Shown: positions 1 to 43,611 of the stretch, piece by piece | Layout of the letters: each line of letters opens with the position of its first letter | Position numbering within the stretch: position 1 is the first letter of the stretch | IMG/VR virus record: IMGVR_UViG_3300021062_000028 | Span: 1-43,611 of that record | Strand: one strand, 5' to 3' | DNA length: 43,611 nt | Origin: a virus | Notes under the pieces: generated by a model | What the model was told of the DNA's origin: nothing | The model's input: only the letters and a program-made list of their open reading frames with translations | The model's database searches: none | Made by a program: the position numbers and the translations under genes

Positions 1-596
1 CGCTCAGGCGTGAGTGGGAGGGTCAACCCCGGCAGGAGTTGCCGGACGATGAAGGCGGCAACCCCGGCAGGAAATGCCGCACACGTCGGCAGCATCTGCC
101 GGACTCGGGAGAAGGGGGAGCGGCAGCATCTGCCGGACCGCCCCGGCAGGATTTGCCGGACACCCCGGCAGCTAATGCCGCAACCCCGGCAGCATCTGCC
201 GACGAACCACCAAGAACCACCAAGAACCATCCAGTTGAACCACCATCAGGCGAGACGCGAAATGCACCACGACGAGAGGCCGCCGGAACGAGGCTTGACC
301 CCGCTTGGCTCCCGGATGCCGATGATCGGGCGTACGCCGAGGAGCGCGGCCTCAACCCCGATGTCGTCGGCGAGGAGTTCCGAAACTTCTGGGTCGGCGT
401 TCCCGGCGCCCGCGGCCGCAAGCTCGACTGGAAGGCAACGTTCCGAAACCGCTGCATCCAGCTTGCCGGCACTGCGCGACCAAGATCGGCAAGCCATCAC
501 CCAGGCGGCAACGGAGCGGGCCTCGCGCGAGGCGGTGATGGGATTGCTGGTGCGGCTCAGCGGGTCATGCAACGGCGTGGCCTGGTCGGCGCGTGA
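1..596 (+). CDS. O-like replication initiator, C-terminal part (gene continues from 43368)
   Basis: Codons in this frame begin at base 3 and read without a stop to TGA at 594-596. The same frame leaves the right end of the window from a TTG start at 43368, so the two pieces make one protein of about 279 residues if the molecule is circular. The middle is low-complexity because it is encoded by the iterons. The C-terminal part, nt 285-450, has the pattern LDPAWLPD ... FRNFWVGVPG ... GRKLDWKATFRNRC, typical of the DnaT/O-type DNA-binding tail of phage replication proteins. By family knowledge, such proteins bind origin iterons and recruit helicase loader and helicase. The last 40 or so residues are glycine/alanine-rich and overlap the next gene. 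The start is not in this piece. Confidence 0.85.
   Translation, partial: LRREWEGQPRQELPDDEGGNPGRKCRTRRQHLPDSGEGGAAASAGPPRQDLPDTPAANAATPAASADEPPRTTKNHPVEPPSGETRNAPRREAAGTRLDPAWLPDADDRAYAEERGLNPDVVGEEFRNFWVGVPGARGRKLDWKATFRNRCIQLAGTARPRSASHHPGGNGAGLARGGDGIAGAAQRVMQRRGLVGA
30..201. repeat. Seven palindromic iterons; probable replication origin inside the initiator gene
   Basis: Seven copies of the 15-bp palindrome CGGCA-N5-TGCCG lie at 30-44, 65-79, 87-101, 121-135, 144-158, 166-180 and 187-201. Start-to-start distances are 35, 22, 34, 23, 22 and 21 bp, close to two or three helical turns. Most copies are preceded by CCC and followed by GA. They lie in the coding sequence of the O-like initiator, just as the lambda iterons lie in gene O. 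Binding by the initiator is inference from this arrangement. Confidence 0.85.
205..247. repeat. Tandem 10-bp repeats next to the iterons (possible unwinding element)
   Basis: Directly after the last iteron the unit AACCACCAAG occurs at 205-214 and 215-224, a diverged copy at 225-234 and a partial copy at 238-247. The tract has few G residues on this strand and is poorer in G+C than its surroundings. In lambda-type origins an easily melted, strand-asymmetric tract follows the iterons, so this is a candidate for the unwinding element. The repeats also encode part of the initiator protein, so they could be a protein-level repeat only. Confidence 0.4.
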
Positions 597-36189: not shown

Positions 36190-36512
36190 TGCGCCGCCTG
36201 CTTTTGATGGCATTCGCTGCTGTGGCAGCTTGCGGCCCTAGCCCGGAGCCGAGGCCGATATATATGCCGCCGCCCCTGCCGCCCCCGCCGAACTTCGCTG
36301 CGCTATCGAACAAGTTGGCGCCGCAGATGACAGAGGCGGATGTTCAGGCGGTCATGGGCGGGCCGCCACGCTCAACAGACTTGACCACCTGTGGCGCCGC
36401 GGTAGGAACGCCGTTCCGCTGCAAGAGCTGGACCTATGGCAACGCCCTAATCATTTTCTTCGGCGCCGATCAGCGCGGCACTTGGCGAGTGCTGGGCTGG
36501 GGCAATCTTTAG
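36189..36512 (+). CDS. Lipoprotein, probable lysogen-expressed
   Basis: 107 residues from ATG 36189 (TGATG overlap). Lipobox AVAAC at residues 11-15 after RRLLLMAF, so the mature protein should be lipid-anchored. A proline run (PPPLPPPP) is followed by LAPQMTEADVQAVMGGPPRS, C67/C77 that could pair, and an aromatic C-terminus. The MTEADVQAVMG-PP pattern is reminiscent of the SmpA/OmlA (BamE) fold. It converges on cI with a 4-nt overlap. Envelope location makes superinfection exclusion a reasonable guess. Confidence 0.7.
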   Translation: MRRLLLMAFAAVAACGPSPEPRPIYMPPPLPPPPNFAALSNKLAPQMTEADVQAVMGGPPRSTDLTTCGAAVGTPFRCKSWTYGNALIIFFGADQRGTWRVLGWGNL

Positions 36513-37135
36513 CCGTCGCCCTGTTTCGCCCACACGATGCGCCAGACGCCCGCAATGGCGCCGCTGGCGATCGGATGCCCTCTGAAGTCAATGATCTGAG
36601 CTGAGCGGCCCGCGCCGGCCAGCACCTTGCCGGCCACCGTCTCGCCGGTTCTCAGCCGCACCAGGCACCGGCGGCCGATGTGCCGCCGCCAATCCTGGTC
36701 TAGCTCTTTCGGGTGATAGAGCACGTCGCCGTCTGAGTAGGCGGGCTCAAGTTCGTCACCCTTCACCCGTGTCGCTTCCAACGACCCAGGTGTCATTCCC
36801 CCGAGATATCCCATAGGCAGCTCTTCGGCTTTTTCAATGGGGTCATGTTCATTGAAATTTTGTCGCCGTCCACTGCGAATCTCGCCTGTAATGAAGATTA
36901 ATGGTTCACTCTGCGGATCGTCCTTCATGGGGCCCGTTCCCTTTATCAACCATTCCGTGCGCACGCCCGTCAAAATCGCCAACTCTATCAATCGCTCCGT
37001 CGCCGGCTTGGTCTTCTTGGGCTTCGTCCATTGGTTTACCGCGCTGGCTGATATGCCAAAGTGACGCGCCACCTTCGATTGATCGAGATGTGACTCATCA
37101 ATTGCGCGTTGGATGCGTTCTGCGAGCGTCGGCAT
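36509..37135 (-). CDS. CI-like repressor lacking the S24 catalytic serine
   Basis: 208 residues from ATG 37135. N-terminal helix-turn-helix (residues about 5-40: LAERIQRAIDESHLDQSKVA then RHFGISASAVNQW). C-terminal half has the LexA/CI fold: EATRVKGDELEPAYSDGDVL, then CLVRLRTGETVAGKVLAG. The position of the nucleophile, normally GDSMEP, reads GDELEP with Glu128; the probable general-base lysine (Lys170) is present. It should dimerise and bind the 17-bp operators, but self-cleavage is not expected. ATG lies 6 nt from a TATACC -10 box. Confidence 0.85.
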   Translation of the reverse strand: MPTLAERIQRAIDESHLDQSKVARHFGISASAVNQWTKPKKTKPATERLIELAILTGVRTEWLIKGTGPMKDDPQSEPLIFITGEIRSGRRQNFNEHDPIEKAEELPMGYLGGMTPGSLEATRVKGDELEPAYSDGDVLYHPKELDQDWRRHIGRRCLVRLRTGETVAGKVLAGAGRSAQIIDFRGHPIASGAIAGVWRIVWAKQGDG

Positions 37136-37141
37136 GGCGAG

Positions 37142-37147
37142 GGTATA
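37142..37147 (-). promoter_or_regulatory. Probable repressor-maintenance promoter PRM (-10)
   Basis: On the minus strand TATACC (37147-37142) precedes the cI ATG by 6 nt; no good -35 is seen 17 nt upstream, as expected for a promoter that needs activation by bound repressor at an adjacent operator. Confidence 0.5.
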
Positions 37148-37162
37148 CAAGCCACGCTTATA
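37146..37162. promoter_or_regulatory. Operator OR-a (cI-proximal)
   Basis: TACAAGCCACGCTTATA. Overlaps the PRM -10 by 2 nt, so binding should repress cI, like lambda OR3. Confidence 0.7.
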
Positions 37163-37170
37163 GGACGCGC

Positions 37171-37187
37171 TAGAAGTATCACTTGCA
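37171..37187. promoter_or_regulatory. Operator OR-b (middle)
   Basis: TAGAAGTATCACTTGCA, the weakest match, 25 bp from OR-a. Its right end overlaps the PR -35. Confidence 0.6.
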
Positions 37188-37212
37188 GATGGGTGTAAGT
37201 CTGACTTATACT
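37183..37212 (+). promoter_or_regulatory. Rightward early promoter PR
   Basis: TTGCAG (37183-37188), 18-nt spacer, TATACT (37207-37212). Operator OR-c covers the spacer and -10. The cro ATG (37221) is 8 nt past the -10, so transcription should start at or next to it. Confidence 0.75.
37194..37210. promoter_or_regulatory. Operator OR-c (cro-proximal)
   Basis: TGTAAGTCTGACTTATA, 23 bp from OR-b; a good match to the family, placed to block PR. Confidence 0.75.
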
Positions 37213-37220
37213 CACCGGCC

Positions 37221-37427
37221 ATGAGCCCCAAACAAGCCCTGAAAGCGGTCAAGGATCACTTCGGTTCCGGCTCCGAGCTGGCGCGGAAGCTCGCCATCAG
37301 CCCGGCGGCGGTCAATCAGTGGCGGTGCGTGCCGATCAAGCGGGTGAAGCAGATCGAGCGCCTGAGCGGCGGCACGTTCTCCCGCTACGACCTTCGCCCT
37401 GACGTATTCGAGCGCGAGGCGGCCTGA
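37221..37427 (+). CDS. Cro-like protein (YdaS-type HTH)
   Basis: 68 residues from ATG 37221. SPKQALKAVKDHFGSGSELA then RKLAISPAAVNQWRCVPIKR and RYDLRPDVFE fit the YdaS/Cro-like family: five-helix HTH with the terminal LRPD-F. It shares the AVNQW recognition-helix word with the divergent repressor (SAVNQW), consistent with recognition of the same operators. First gene of PR; no ribosome site, matching a leaderless mRNA. Confidence 0.8.
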   Translation: MSPKQALKAVKDHFGSGSELARKLAISPAAVNQWRCVPIKRVKQIERLSGGTFSRYDLRPDVFEREAA

Positions 37428-38540: not shown

Positions 38541-38544
38541 CTGA
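38344..38544 (+). CDS. Small basic helical protein overlapping the HTH gene
   Basis: 66 residues from ATG 38344 (GAGG 8 nt upstream), almost entirely inside the end of the 38100 gene in another frame. Basic helical: YIKRSMIARFAQWRARALNR and KAERLAQRAHKAAIDAKCWL. Its stop overlaps the ATG of the next gene (TGATG), which supports translation. Confidence 0.5.
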   Translation: MLGYIKRSMIARFAQWRARALNRKAERLAQRAHKAAIDAKCWLDLEKRARGPAPLRLFDWAKWGND

Positions 38545-39110
38545 TGCCGACGTACATCGTCCGCGCTGGCGATAACGGCCCCGTCAAGATCGGCTGGGCT
38601 GACGACGTCGCCGCGCGAGTCGCGGATCTTCAGACCGGCCACTACGAAACCCTCCGCGTCATTCGCGAGGTTGATACGTGGTGGAACTCTGAGCCGCAAT
38701 TCCACGAGCGCTTTAAGGACCGGCGGCTGCGTGGCGAGTGGTTCACCTTTGACCCCGAGATGCTGACGTTCATTCCGCGCGAGGCGAAATCAAAACGAGA
38801 GCGCCTTCTGGTCAAGGTCGAACGCAGCGAGAGCTTGGAGGAGGCGCGCAGCCTTCTGGAGGTAATCGCTGGTCCGCGCGATTGGAATGAGAAGCGTCAC
38901 GAGATTCACCGGCGCCTCTCTGAGCTTACCGGCCTTTCGTATGCGCGCATTCGTGCGCTGTTTTATGGCGACGCCAAGCGCATCGACATTCACGAACTTG
39001 AGGCCTTACGCCAAAAGGCGGCGGTTGTGCGCAGCCTTCCGACAATCAGAGGCGCAGCGGCCGACCTCGACGAAGAACACGCCGCTGTTCGATCCGGACG
39101 CGACACCTGA
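38544..39110 (+). CDS. GIY-YIG-type (MUG113-like) domain fused to HTH-like domain
   Basis: 188 residues from ATG 38544. Residues 1-75: YIVRAGDNGPVKIGWADDVA, RVADLQTGHYETLRVIRE, then HERFKDRRLRGEWFTF, the T5orf172/MUG113 GIY-YIG pattern. Residues 90-165: SLLEVIAGPRDWNEKRHEIH then LTGLSYARIRALFYGDAKRI, an HTH-like domain shared with the 38100 protein. A nuclease-like module joined to a DNA-binding module suggests sequence-directed action on DNA, but catalytic activity is unproven. Confidence 0.7.
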   Translation: MPTYIVRAGDNGPVKIGWADDVAARVADLQTGHYETLRVIREVDTWWNSEPQFHERFKDRRLRGEWFTFDPEMLTFIPREAKSKRERLLVKVERSESLEEARSLLEVIAGPRDWNEKRHEIHRRLSELTGLSYARIRALFYGDAKRIDIHELEALRQKAAVVRSLPTIRGAAADLDEEHAAVRSGRDT

Positions 39111-41818: not shown

Positions 41819-42507
41819 CCCGCGTCGAGACCATAGGCGCCGCGACGCTGTATTTGGCGGACAGCCGAGAGGTGGTCGCAGGCTTGCGTGGCGTGAGCGT
41901 GACGGTCACTGATCCGCAGTACGGCGTGAAACTCGGCGAGCGCACGGGAACGTCGCGCTACCTCAATGAGCCTTACAGCGCCACCGAGGATTCGCCTGAG
42001 TACGTGCGCAACGTGTGCGTGCCCATTGTGCAGGCCTGCCTGACCCTGGCGCCGCGCTTGGCCATGACGCCCGGCAACAAGTGCATGTGGATGTACCCTG
42101 AGCCTGCCGACGTGGGCATCTGGTACAACCCTGCGTCGACGAACAGAGGGAAGTGGGGCTTCTCGTTCGCCAACGCCTTCATCTTCTACTATGGCCGCGA
42201 CCCTCACAACGTTGGGCGCGGGATGCGCCCCAACTCGCTATCCGGCGCCTGTGATTCCGTCGATGACATAGACCACCCTTGCCCAAAGCCTCTGCTGTTC
42301 ACGCGCTGGCTTGTCGAGCGCGCGAGCCTCGCCGGCGAGATCGTACTCGACCCGTTCATGGGCAGCGGCACGACTGGCGTTGCCGCCGTCACCATGGGCC
42401 GCCGCTTCATCGGCATCGAGATCGAGCCTCGCTACTTCGAGATCGCGTGCAGGCGCATCGAGGAAGCGCAGCGCCAGCGCGATCTATTCATCGAGCCCGC
42501 CGCATGA
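41815..42507 (+). CDS. DNA methyltransferase (N4/N6 amino type)
   Basis: 230 residues from GTG 41815, with GGGAGGGGGAG upstream. Motif IV region VTVTDPQYGVKL at residues 29-40 (Asp33-Pro-Gln-Tyr36; the usual form is DPPY), CPKPLLFTRWLVER (motif X-like) and motif I DPFMGSGTTGVAAV from Asp179, then IGIEIEPRYFEIACRR (motif II). Order IV-X-I fits the beta class. A short middle region leaves little room for a target-recognition domain. It would modify adenine or cytosine amino groups, perhaps protecting phage DNA from restriction. Confidence 0.8.
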   Translation: MTRVETIGAATLYLADSREVVAGLRGVSVTVTDPQYGVKLGERTGTSRYLNEPYSATEDSPEYVRNVCVPIVQACLTLAPRLAMTPGNKCMWMYPEPADVGIWYNPASTNRGKWGFSFANAFIFYYGRDPHNVGRGMRPNSLSGACDSVDDIDHPCPKPLLFTRWLVERASLAGEIVLDPFMGSGTTGVAAVTMGRRFIGIEIEPRYFEIACRRIEEAQRQRDLFIEPAA

Positions 42508-42584
42508 GCGCCGCCGCCCAAAGCCTGATCCTCGCGCTCGCGGTGGCGACGCTGATCCTGCTCGTGACCGGAGGGAAGATATGA
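42504..42584 (+). CDS. Very small membrane protein
   Basis: 26 residues from ATG 42504, with 4-nt overlaps on both sides. AQSLILALAVATLILLVTGG is a single hydrophobic helix. The double overlap supports it more than its length does. Confidence 0.45.
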   Translation: MSAAAQSLILALAVATLILLVTGGKI

Positions 42585-43246
42585 CGCTGCAAGACGAGTT
42601 CGGAATCGTCACGCGCAATCGCGAGATGCGGGCGCTGTATGGCGACAGGCGCGGGCATGGGGTGGCCAAGCATGTGCCGACGCTGCCGCCTGTGGCCGCT
42701 CCAGCGCCGCCGCCCGAGCCGAAGCGGCCGGCAGCCGTGAACAGGGCGCCCGTCGTGCCGCGCGTCATCAGCGATGAGACGATGCGACGTGCCGCCAATC
42801 TTGAGATCCTTACCGTCAGCCTCGGCGTGAGCCTTGCCGAAACGAGCGCGCGACTGGGTGAGATCGAGACGATGCTGGCGGAGGCAGCGGCGGAGCGCGT
42901 TGTCGAGATTCGCCACATCATCCGCGTCGTCTCGGTGCTGTCCGGCATTTCAATCGCCGAGCTGATGTCCGAGCGCCGCGCACGCCACATAGCCCGGCCG
43001 CGTCAGGTAATCATGTACCTCGCGAAGATTCACCTTGGCTTATCCCTGCCCAAGATCGGCCGCGCCATCGGCAATCGCGACCACACCACCGTCATGCACG
43101 CGCACCGCAAGATCGACCGGCTGCTGAGGGTCGGCGACCCCGAGCTGCAGGCGTTCGTCGAGCGCTGCGAGCTGGTGCTGGAGCGCAAGCGAAACGGGGT
43201 GGTCAATGCGGAACATTCCGGGGCCGCGCTACTTTTGTCCCCGTAA
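42581..43246 (+). CDS. DnaA domain IV-like DNA-binding protein
   Basis: 221 residues from ATG 42581. The C-terminal 90 residues carry the DnaA DNA-binding domain: VVSVLSGISIAELMSERRAR, HIARPRQVIMYLAKIHLGLS, and the signature GNRDHTTVMHAHRKI at residues 164-178. No AAA+ domain is present, so it is a stand-alone binding module with a helical/proline-rich N-terminus. It lies directly before the O-like initiator and could direct the phage or host initiator to DnaA-box-like sequences, or act as a regulator. Confidence 0.85.
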   Translation: MTLQDEFGIVTRNREMRALYGDRRGHGVAKHVPTLPPVAAPAPPPEPKRPAAVNRAPVVPRVISDETMRRAANLEILTVSLGVSLAETSARLGEIETMLAEAAAERVVEIRHIIRVVSVLSGISIAELMSERRARHIARPRQVIMYLAKIHLGLSLPKIGRAIGNRDHTTVMHAHRKIDRLLRVGDPELQAFVERCELVLERKRNGVVNAEHSGAALLLSP

Positions 43247-43260
43247 TTGTGGGGATTTTT
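43238..43260 (+). terminator. Intrinsic terminator at the end of the DnaA-like gene
   Basis: TCCCC(GT)-AATT-(GT)GGGGA followed by TTTTT: 5 bp plus two G-T pairs and a T-run. The stop codon TAA lies in the hairpin. Reading into the initiator gene would need antitermination or a separate promoter. Confidence 0.6.
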
Positions 43261-43367
43261 AGAACAACGGGAAGAACGGACTAGCACAGTTATTCAGAGG
43301 GCCTAGAATTGAGTAGTGGCCTTCCCGTCGAACGGACATCCCCTCTAATCAACAAGGCAATCTGTAC
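43247..43367. promoter_or_regulatory. Control region before the initiator gene
   Basis: 121 nt without a gene. An 8-bp inverted repeat ACGGGAAG (43267-43274) / CTTCCCGT (43321-43328) brackets the middle. A TAGAAT -10-like word is at 43304 but no matching -35 is seen. AAGG (43354) is the only ribosome-site-like word. Confidence 0.4.
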
Positions 43368-43611
43368 TTGAGCTACGACGCCCTCCGATGGGCCTTCGCC
43401 CTCCACATGACGGACGCCAGCGCCAAGGCGGTGCTGATCGCGCTTGCCGATCATGCTGACGATGAAGGGCGTTGCTGGCCGGCTGCCGAGCGGCTTTGCC
43501 AGTTCACGGCGCTCGCCGATCGGACGGTACGTGGCGCGCTTCAGCGGCTCGCCGACATGGGCGCGATCACCCTCCAAGAGCGCAAAGGCAAGTCGCCGAT
43601 GTGTTCGCTCA
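43368..43611 (+). CDS. O-like replication initiator, N-terminal part (continues at base 1)
   Basis: TTG 43368 starts LSYDALRWAFALHMTDASAK then VLIALADHADDEGRCWPAAE and LADRTVRGALQRLADMGAI, the winged-helix domain found at the N-terminus of phage O-like initiators; proteins of this type begin MSYEALRWAF, which supports the TTG start. An in-frame stop at 43314 excludes a much longer N-terminus. The frame runs out at 43611 and continues at base 3, where iterons and the C-terminal domain follow. Confidence 0.85.
   Translation, partial: MSYDALRWAFALHMTDASAKAVLIALADHADDEGRCWPAAERLCQFTALADRTVRGALQRLADMGAITLQERKGKSPMCSL

Follow-up and report, generated by a model that had tools for sequence, protein, structure and literature searches.

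The window, i.e., the whole stretch of DNA analysed here, which is an entire virus record of 43,611 bases, most probably carries the phage replication origin within the gene of the phage's own initiator, with an HTH_36 protein binding iterons and an adjoining GAACC array being opened; we put the probability of this reading at about 0.86. Judged from sequence features, the arrangement is best read as a lambda-style in-gene origin, consisting of iterons and an A-rich unwinding element, which would be served by a non-lambda HTH_36 initiator. New in this work are a residue-base rule extending over the initiator family and the array with units of about 11 bp. The elements concerned are the following.

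43368..43611, plus strand: N-terminal winged-helix DNA-binding domain of the initiator (HTH_36 match, AlphaFold2 model)
1..596, plus strand: rest of the initiator, comprising the iteron-coded linker and the C-terminal domain (stop at 594-596; phrog_1032)
30..44, no strand: iteron 1, CGGCAGGAGTTGCCG
65..79, no strand: iteron 2, CGGCAGGAAATGCCG
87..101, no strand: iteron 3, CGGCAGCATCTGCCG
121..135, no strand: iteron 4, CGGCAGCATCTGCCG, as iterons 3 and 7
144..158, no strand: iteron 5, CGGCAGGATTTGCCG
166..180, no strand: iteron 6, CGGCAGCTAATGCCG
187..201, no strand: iteron 7, CGGCAGCATCTGCCG
204..245, plus strand: A-rich tandem array, likely unwinding element (GAACC at 204, 214, 224 and 237)

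The initiator gene appears in the record as two open reading frames on the plus strand, one at 3..596 lacking its 5' end and one starting at 43368 and lacking its 3' end at the end of the record. When the end of the record is joined to its start, positions 43368-43611 and 1-596 stay in frame and encode a protein of 279 residues, and the frame is likewise kept if CGCTCA, constituting both the first and the last six bases, is collapsed as an overlap. The record would accordingly be circular, and hence the initiator gene joined across its ends. The preliminary description had placed the iterons inside the initiator gene, which holds true, albeit for a gene that is incomplete at the window start and has its first 81 codons plus one base, beginning with a TTG start codon, at 43368-43611. 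Profile matches of the joined protein are phrog_1032, 'replication initiation protein', over residues 1-240 (E 4.5e-24) and Pfam HTH_36 (PF13730) above the cut-off (E 7e-11), and its C-terminal part alone matches phrog_1408 (E 1.8e-9). These sequence matches place the joined protein among the HTH_36/phrog_1032 replication initiators. RepA_N (PF06970) was not found in the joined protein by Pfam, which reports HTH_36 instead, and a Pfam match of RPA_interact_N to the window was set aside as being below the cut-off. The AlphaFold2 model of the initiator domain (pLDDT 95) is a winged helix with the order H-H-H-H-E-E, in which the helix of residues 51-64, including Arg55, takes the recognition position. 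The iterons encode the linker between this N-terminal DNA-binding domain and the C-terminal domain.

In line with the preliminary description, which had reported seven copies of CGGCA-N5-TGCCG at 30-201, all seven are exact inverted repeats with perfect 5-bp arms around N5, and no further exact copy is present elsewhere in the window. Under a first-order Markov null, 0.29 palindromes are expected on average per whole window (maximum 3 in 100), and redrawing the host gene with synonymous codons gives a mean of 0.15 (maximum 3 in 5000 draws). Relative to the reading frame of the initiator gene, the iterons have phases 0, 2, 0, 1, 0, 1 and 1 and thus occupy all three frames, indicating selection on the DNA and not on a repeated peptide. 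The start-to-start spacings are, in order, 35, 22, 34, 23, 22 and 21; hence, the helical spacing proposed earlier is correct for the distances of 21-23, corresponding to two helical turns, but only approximate overall, as 34-35 amounts to about 3.3 turns.

Comparison of the repeat with related phages, as suggested in the preliminary description, demonstrates that the palindromes track the initiator family and that their sequence covaries with the recognition helix. When IMG/VR was scanned at the DNA level only, for two palindromes 5-30 bases apart and using no protein information, 81 of the 120 matches listed overlapped an open reading frame with the same HTH domain, compared with none of 56 loci for the composition-matched scrambled control GACGC-N5-GCGTC (Fisher 3e-20 for overlap with the initiator family, palindrome matches listed versus control). 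In the reverse direction, relatives were chosen by protein from annotated phages, IMG/VR and bacterial genomes, and the best N5 palindrome family was sought in the 450 nt after the HTH against codon-shuffled nulls. Searching IMG/VR with the single protein as query gave no relatives; the searches in IMG/VR and bacterial genomes were based on a 7-sequence alignment. A significant N5 palindrome family was detected in about 55% of unique relatives (49/88), and the other approximately 45% showed no significant N5 palindrome in these 450 nt. As a positive control, the method recovers the four annotated iterons of lambda. The half-sites of relatives mostly differ from that of the window (CCGCA, GTGCA, CCGAA, TGCCA, GTGTC, GGTCA and others), and the palindromes are kept at the DNA level in different reading frames rather than being destroyed by synonymous changes. 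Regarding annotation, in the initiator ORF 1938-2699 of Pseudomonas phage PseuP_224 (locus L181) the GenBank entry is not full length; its annotation, 'primosomal protein I', is limited to a short 3' part and leaves out both the HTH domain and the probable origin region.

The covariation can be traced to individual residues. Among protein-chosen relatives, Arg in the place of window residue 55 is paired with CGGCA in 10/10 cases and Gln or His with CCGCA in 12/12 (p 1.5e-6 for the association), and the window itself, combining Arg55 with CGGCA, agrees with this rule. Asp replacing Glu four residues earlier, in DR-x-x-Gln helices, is associated with CCGAA. An unbiased mutual-information scan of all HTH columns against the five half-site bases returned Arg55 and base 2 as the top pair, with z values of 15.9 for all genes, 13.5 for the protein-selected ones and 12.8 for genes clustered at 60%; the pair formed by the Asp51 column and base 4 likewise ranks among the top ones, being weaker after clustering. 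Forward scans of IMG/VR with CCGCA and CGAA palindromes led to 16 and 12 unique initiator genes, respectively, with Arg at the key position in none of the 28 (pooled p 0.003 with 27/128 Arg as the base rate in the family, and p 1.6e-9 against the CGGCA-scan matches listed) and Asp in 7/12 of the CGAA-scan genes. Gln or His is found in only 9/16 of the CCGCA-scan genes, and the positive half of the prediction is therefore weaker than the exclusion of Arg. The tree, for which at most about 55 columns were available, is weak and poorly resolved; it has 14 residue changes and 13 base changes, of which only five supported independent pairs can be counted; the pairings nearly all agree and none disagree, with p 0.0625 being the floor for five pairs.

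The one-residue rule is not universal, as a subfamily with an 'RSTVQ' helix pairs Gln with CGGCA. Since Arg occupies the Glu/Asp position in these proteins, an alternative contact is likely. Members of this subfamily (loci L020 and L060 and about 20 more among the matches listed) have CGGCA palindromes exactly 24 bp apart and a different, TAACGACCCCT-like downstream motif. In many cases, the site type can be predicted from the sequence of the initiator protein. Across the family, iteron spacings cluster at 16-17, 21-24, 33-34 and 44-45 bp, and the central gap of 5 stays constant even though the arm sequence changes with the specificity class. These regularities, together with the covariation between arm sequence and DNA-recognition helix, speak against the repeats acting as RNA hairpins in the initiator message, i.e., as an attenuator or translational control, a highly improbable explanation even if 5-bp arms and 5-nt loops could give short hairpins.

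Directly 3' of the iterons, the composition of the DNA changes. The window has a G+C content of 0.52-0.56 at 201-275, compared with about 0.67 around, and in 116 genes of the family the 25 nt that immediately follow the last iteron on its 3' side deviate from the gene mean by -0.116 in G+C and +0.125 in A, with the G+C dip on the 5' side being at most 0.05. GAACC arrays of at least two copies lie downstream in 54/122 genes and upstream in one, with 5.0 expected from codon shuffles. Their unit spacing is mostly 10-12 bp with a mode of 11, and in 40/54 genes the copies fall in more than one reading frame. Related arrays occur in many of the remaining genes, for example, AACCGTCA, GATCCGT and AACTAAATACA. 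In a DNA-only scan for the GAACC array, 83 of 118 loci lay within genes of this initiator family, in the orientation of the gene and for the most part 130-260 nt past the HTH; among the remaining loci, initiator genes cut off by the end of a contig and simple repeats of hexanucleotide units predominate. Several of the IMG/VR contigs (L569, L571, L603, L642, L661 and L668) are rich in GAACCGTAACCG-type hexanucleotide repeats; these are unlike phage replication genes and possibly non-viral. No description of the approximately 11-bp GAACC array was found in the literature searched, which was covered in part.

This anatomy also bears on whether the palindromes are operators, for self-repression of the initiator or control of the downstream operon, with replication starting elsewhere. 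The binding code does resemble that of a GntR-type repressor, and autoregulation could coexist with origin function. The sites, however, are seven in number and lie 270-450 nt inside the gene rather than at a promoter, and in relatives they are followed by the conserved A-rich array, so that the anatomy fits origins and not operators; as the sole function of the repeats we regard repression as improbable. A promoter and terminator scan of 42500-43611 found none.

Favouring the origin reading, the first step is well supported by the covariation: dimers of the HTH_36 initiator would fill the seven palindromes, using the recognition helix for contact and Arg55 to read base 2 of the half-sites. 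Modelled on lambda (PMC5043065), the loaded iteron array would then bend or stress the DNA, the adjacent A-rich GAACC array (204-245) would open, and the host helicase would be loaded there, possibly aided by a phage partner, as the start of theta replication. The open reading frame at 538-1017, immediately downstream of the initiator, has no Pfam or phage match and could be a helicase loader by its position. Annotated relatives carry a P-like loader or DnaB beside the initiator. This neighbourhood, along with the annotation of the family as replication initiators, is difficult to reconcile with a partition or centromere-like site lacking origin function. Arrays of sites bound by winged-helix proteins do exist in partition systems, and TubR is among the structural matches of the domain, but no partition gene was noticed near the site in an unsystematic look, and this explanation appears scarcely credible.

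With respect to known systems, lambda ori is the closest in layout, sharing inverted-symmetry iterons within the initiator gene that code for a linker and are spaced at 20-24 bp, as well as an A-rich stretch directly 3' of the iterons (PMC5043065, PMC7466680). The corresponding 3' 50 nt of lambda are A-rich with 28% G+C. That the repeat itself is unlike lambda's, as noted before, is borne out, with seven copies of CGGCA around N5 here compared with four of TCCCT around N7 in lambda, and the A-rich element, a tandem GAACC array with units of about 11 bp, is also unlike lambda. The family HMM run on lambda O gave no match, the DNA-binding domains being different, and the initiator is therefore not filed in the lambda O family. 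By analogy, the site would work like lambda ori without its initiator belonging to that family. The earlier proposal of a probable origin and its cognate initiator in one stretch is supported by the phrog_1032/HTH_36 assignment, the covariation and the lambda-like anatomy, from which we infer origin activity.

The structural neighbours of the modelled domain include the Rep/initiator entries 4pql, 4pt7 and 5kbj, which we take to be RepA_N structures, at weak fold similarity (E 0.009-0.04). RepA_N initiators such as that of pSK41 have a winged-helix N-terminus and carry their origin boxes in the middle of the rep gene (PMC5703833), as is the case here, but are set apart since Pfam calls the window protein HTH_36 rather than RepA_N. 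More directly comparable is the staphylococcal plasmid pPR9, whose Rep has pfam13730 (HTH_36) as N-terminus and differs from pSK41 in this domain and the origin as one block of about 500 bp, and for whose region autonomous replication and compatibility with pSK41 are reported (PMC5703833). Thus, pPR9 Rep combines an HTH_36 N-terminus and the origin in one module, as in the window, though it belongs to a plasmid of a low-GC host and has a RepA_N-type C-terminus, unlike the phage initiator. Tandem repeats beside iterons as an initiator-bound unwinding element are likewise known from the 13-mers of plasmid RK2 (PMC5043065; PMC4081077); these are A+T-rich, in contrast to the GAACC units of about 11 bp in mostly GC-rich phages, for which single-strand binding is putative.

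An HMM alignment was made between the initiator helix and a FadR-family protein, in which residues 51 and 55 presumably correspond to Arg45 and Arg49 in FadR numbering. In FadR, Arg45 makes a base contact and Arg49 a backbone contact (PMC4494728), so that the direct base contact suggested by covariation for Arg55 would differ from that of the aligned FadR residue. The sequence relation of the helix to GntR/FadR regulators, for which a covariation approach has also been used (PMC4494728), is weak, and these are transcription factors whereas the window protein is an initiator.

Distant relatives also occur on two small plasmids, L678 (8,461 bp, E. coli, circular) and L679 (8,600 bp, Klebsiella), in which the replication genes that can be recognised are limited to those of an O-like HTH protein and P. 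By analogy, both look like natural lambda-dv-like mini-replicons of a prophage O-P region. Because of this distance, their support for origin function is indirect. The initiator gene of the Klebsiella plasmid has significant N4 palindromes of other sequence, and in that of the E. coli plasmid no palindrome family reaches significance (p about 0.3 at N5). Mycobacteriophage RepA (Babsiella), considered because it is related to a group that has been studied experimentally, was rejected as a relative due to its different N-terminus and lack of clustered palindromes, in line with PMC7157519, where no repeats were found.

The replication genes are accompanied by the following features.

42581-43246, plus strand: DnaA domain-IV DNA-binding protein (PF08299, E 6.5e-25), directly upstream of the initiator
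41824-42507, plus strand: N6/N4 DNA methyltransferase gene, just upstream of the replication genes
2144-2476 and 38544-39110, both plus strand: two T5orf172/MUG113-domain genes, GIY-YIG-like, flanking the origin region
36509-37252, minus strand: CI-like repressor (HTH_3), on the opposite strand

With a CI-like repressor present, the phage is probably temperate. The DnaA domain-IV protein may target DnaA sites of the host or serve as an additional replication factor, and its gene just upstream makes a second origin possible. Going further, the true origin could be sought in the AT-richer gap at 43247-43367 between this gene and the initiator, having a local G+C of about 0.48-0.52, with the iterons being accessory or silent. 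No consensus DnaA box (TTWTNCACA) exists anywhere in the window, though, and family-wide conservation falls on the iterons and the adjoining array, rendering an origin in the gap quite improbable. The cumulative GC skew of the window gives no clear pointer to the iteron site.

To our knowledge, most temperate phages that do not belong to the lambda group still lack a mapped replication origin. With palindromes, residue-base rule and downstream array, such origins may be located and typed from sequence. We lean slightly towards a general recognition code among HTH_36 initiators, combined with a two-part origin of iterons and an A-rich array of about 11-bp units that would be bound single-stranded by the initiator or a partner. 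If this is true, much of the iteron would be readable from the recognition helix alone, and the origins of hundreds of uncharacterised phages would be locatable from sequence. The system may also offer a simple test case for the evolution of initiator specificity where the gene of the reader itself contains the site.
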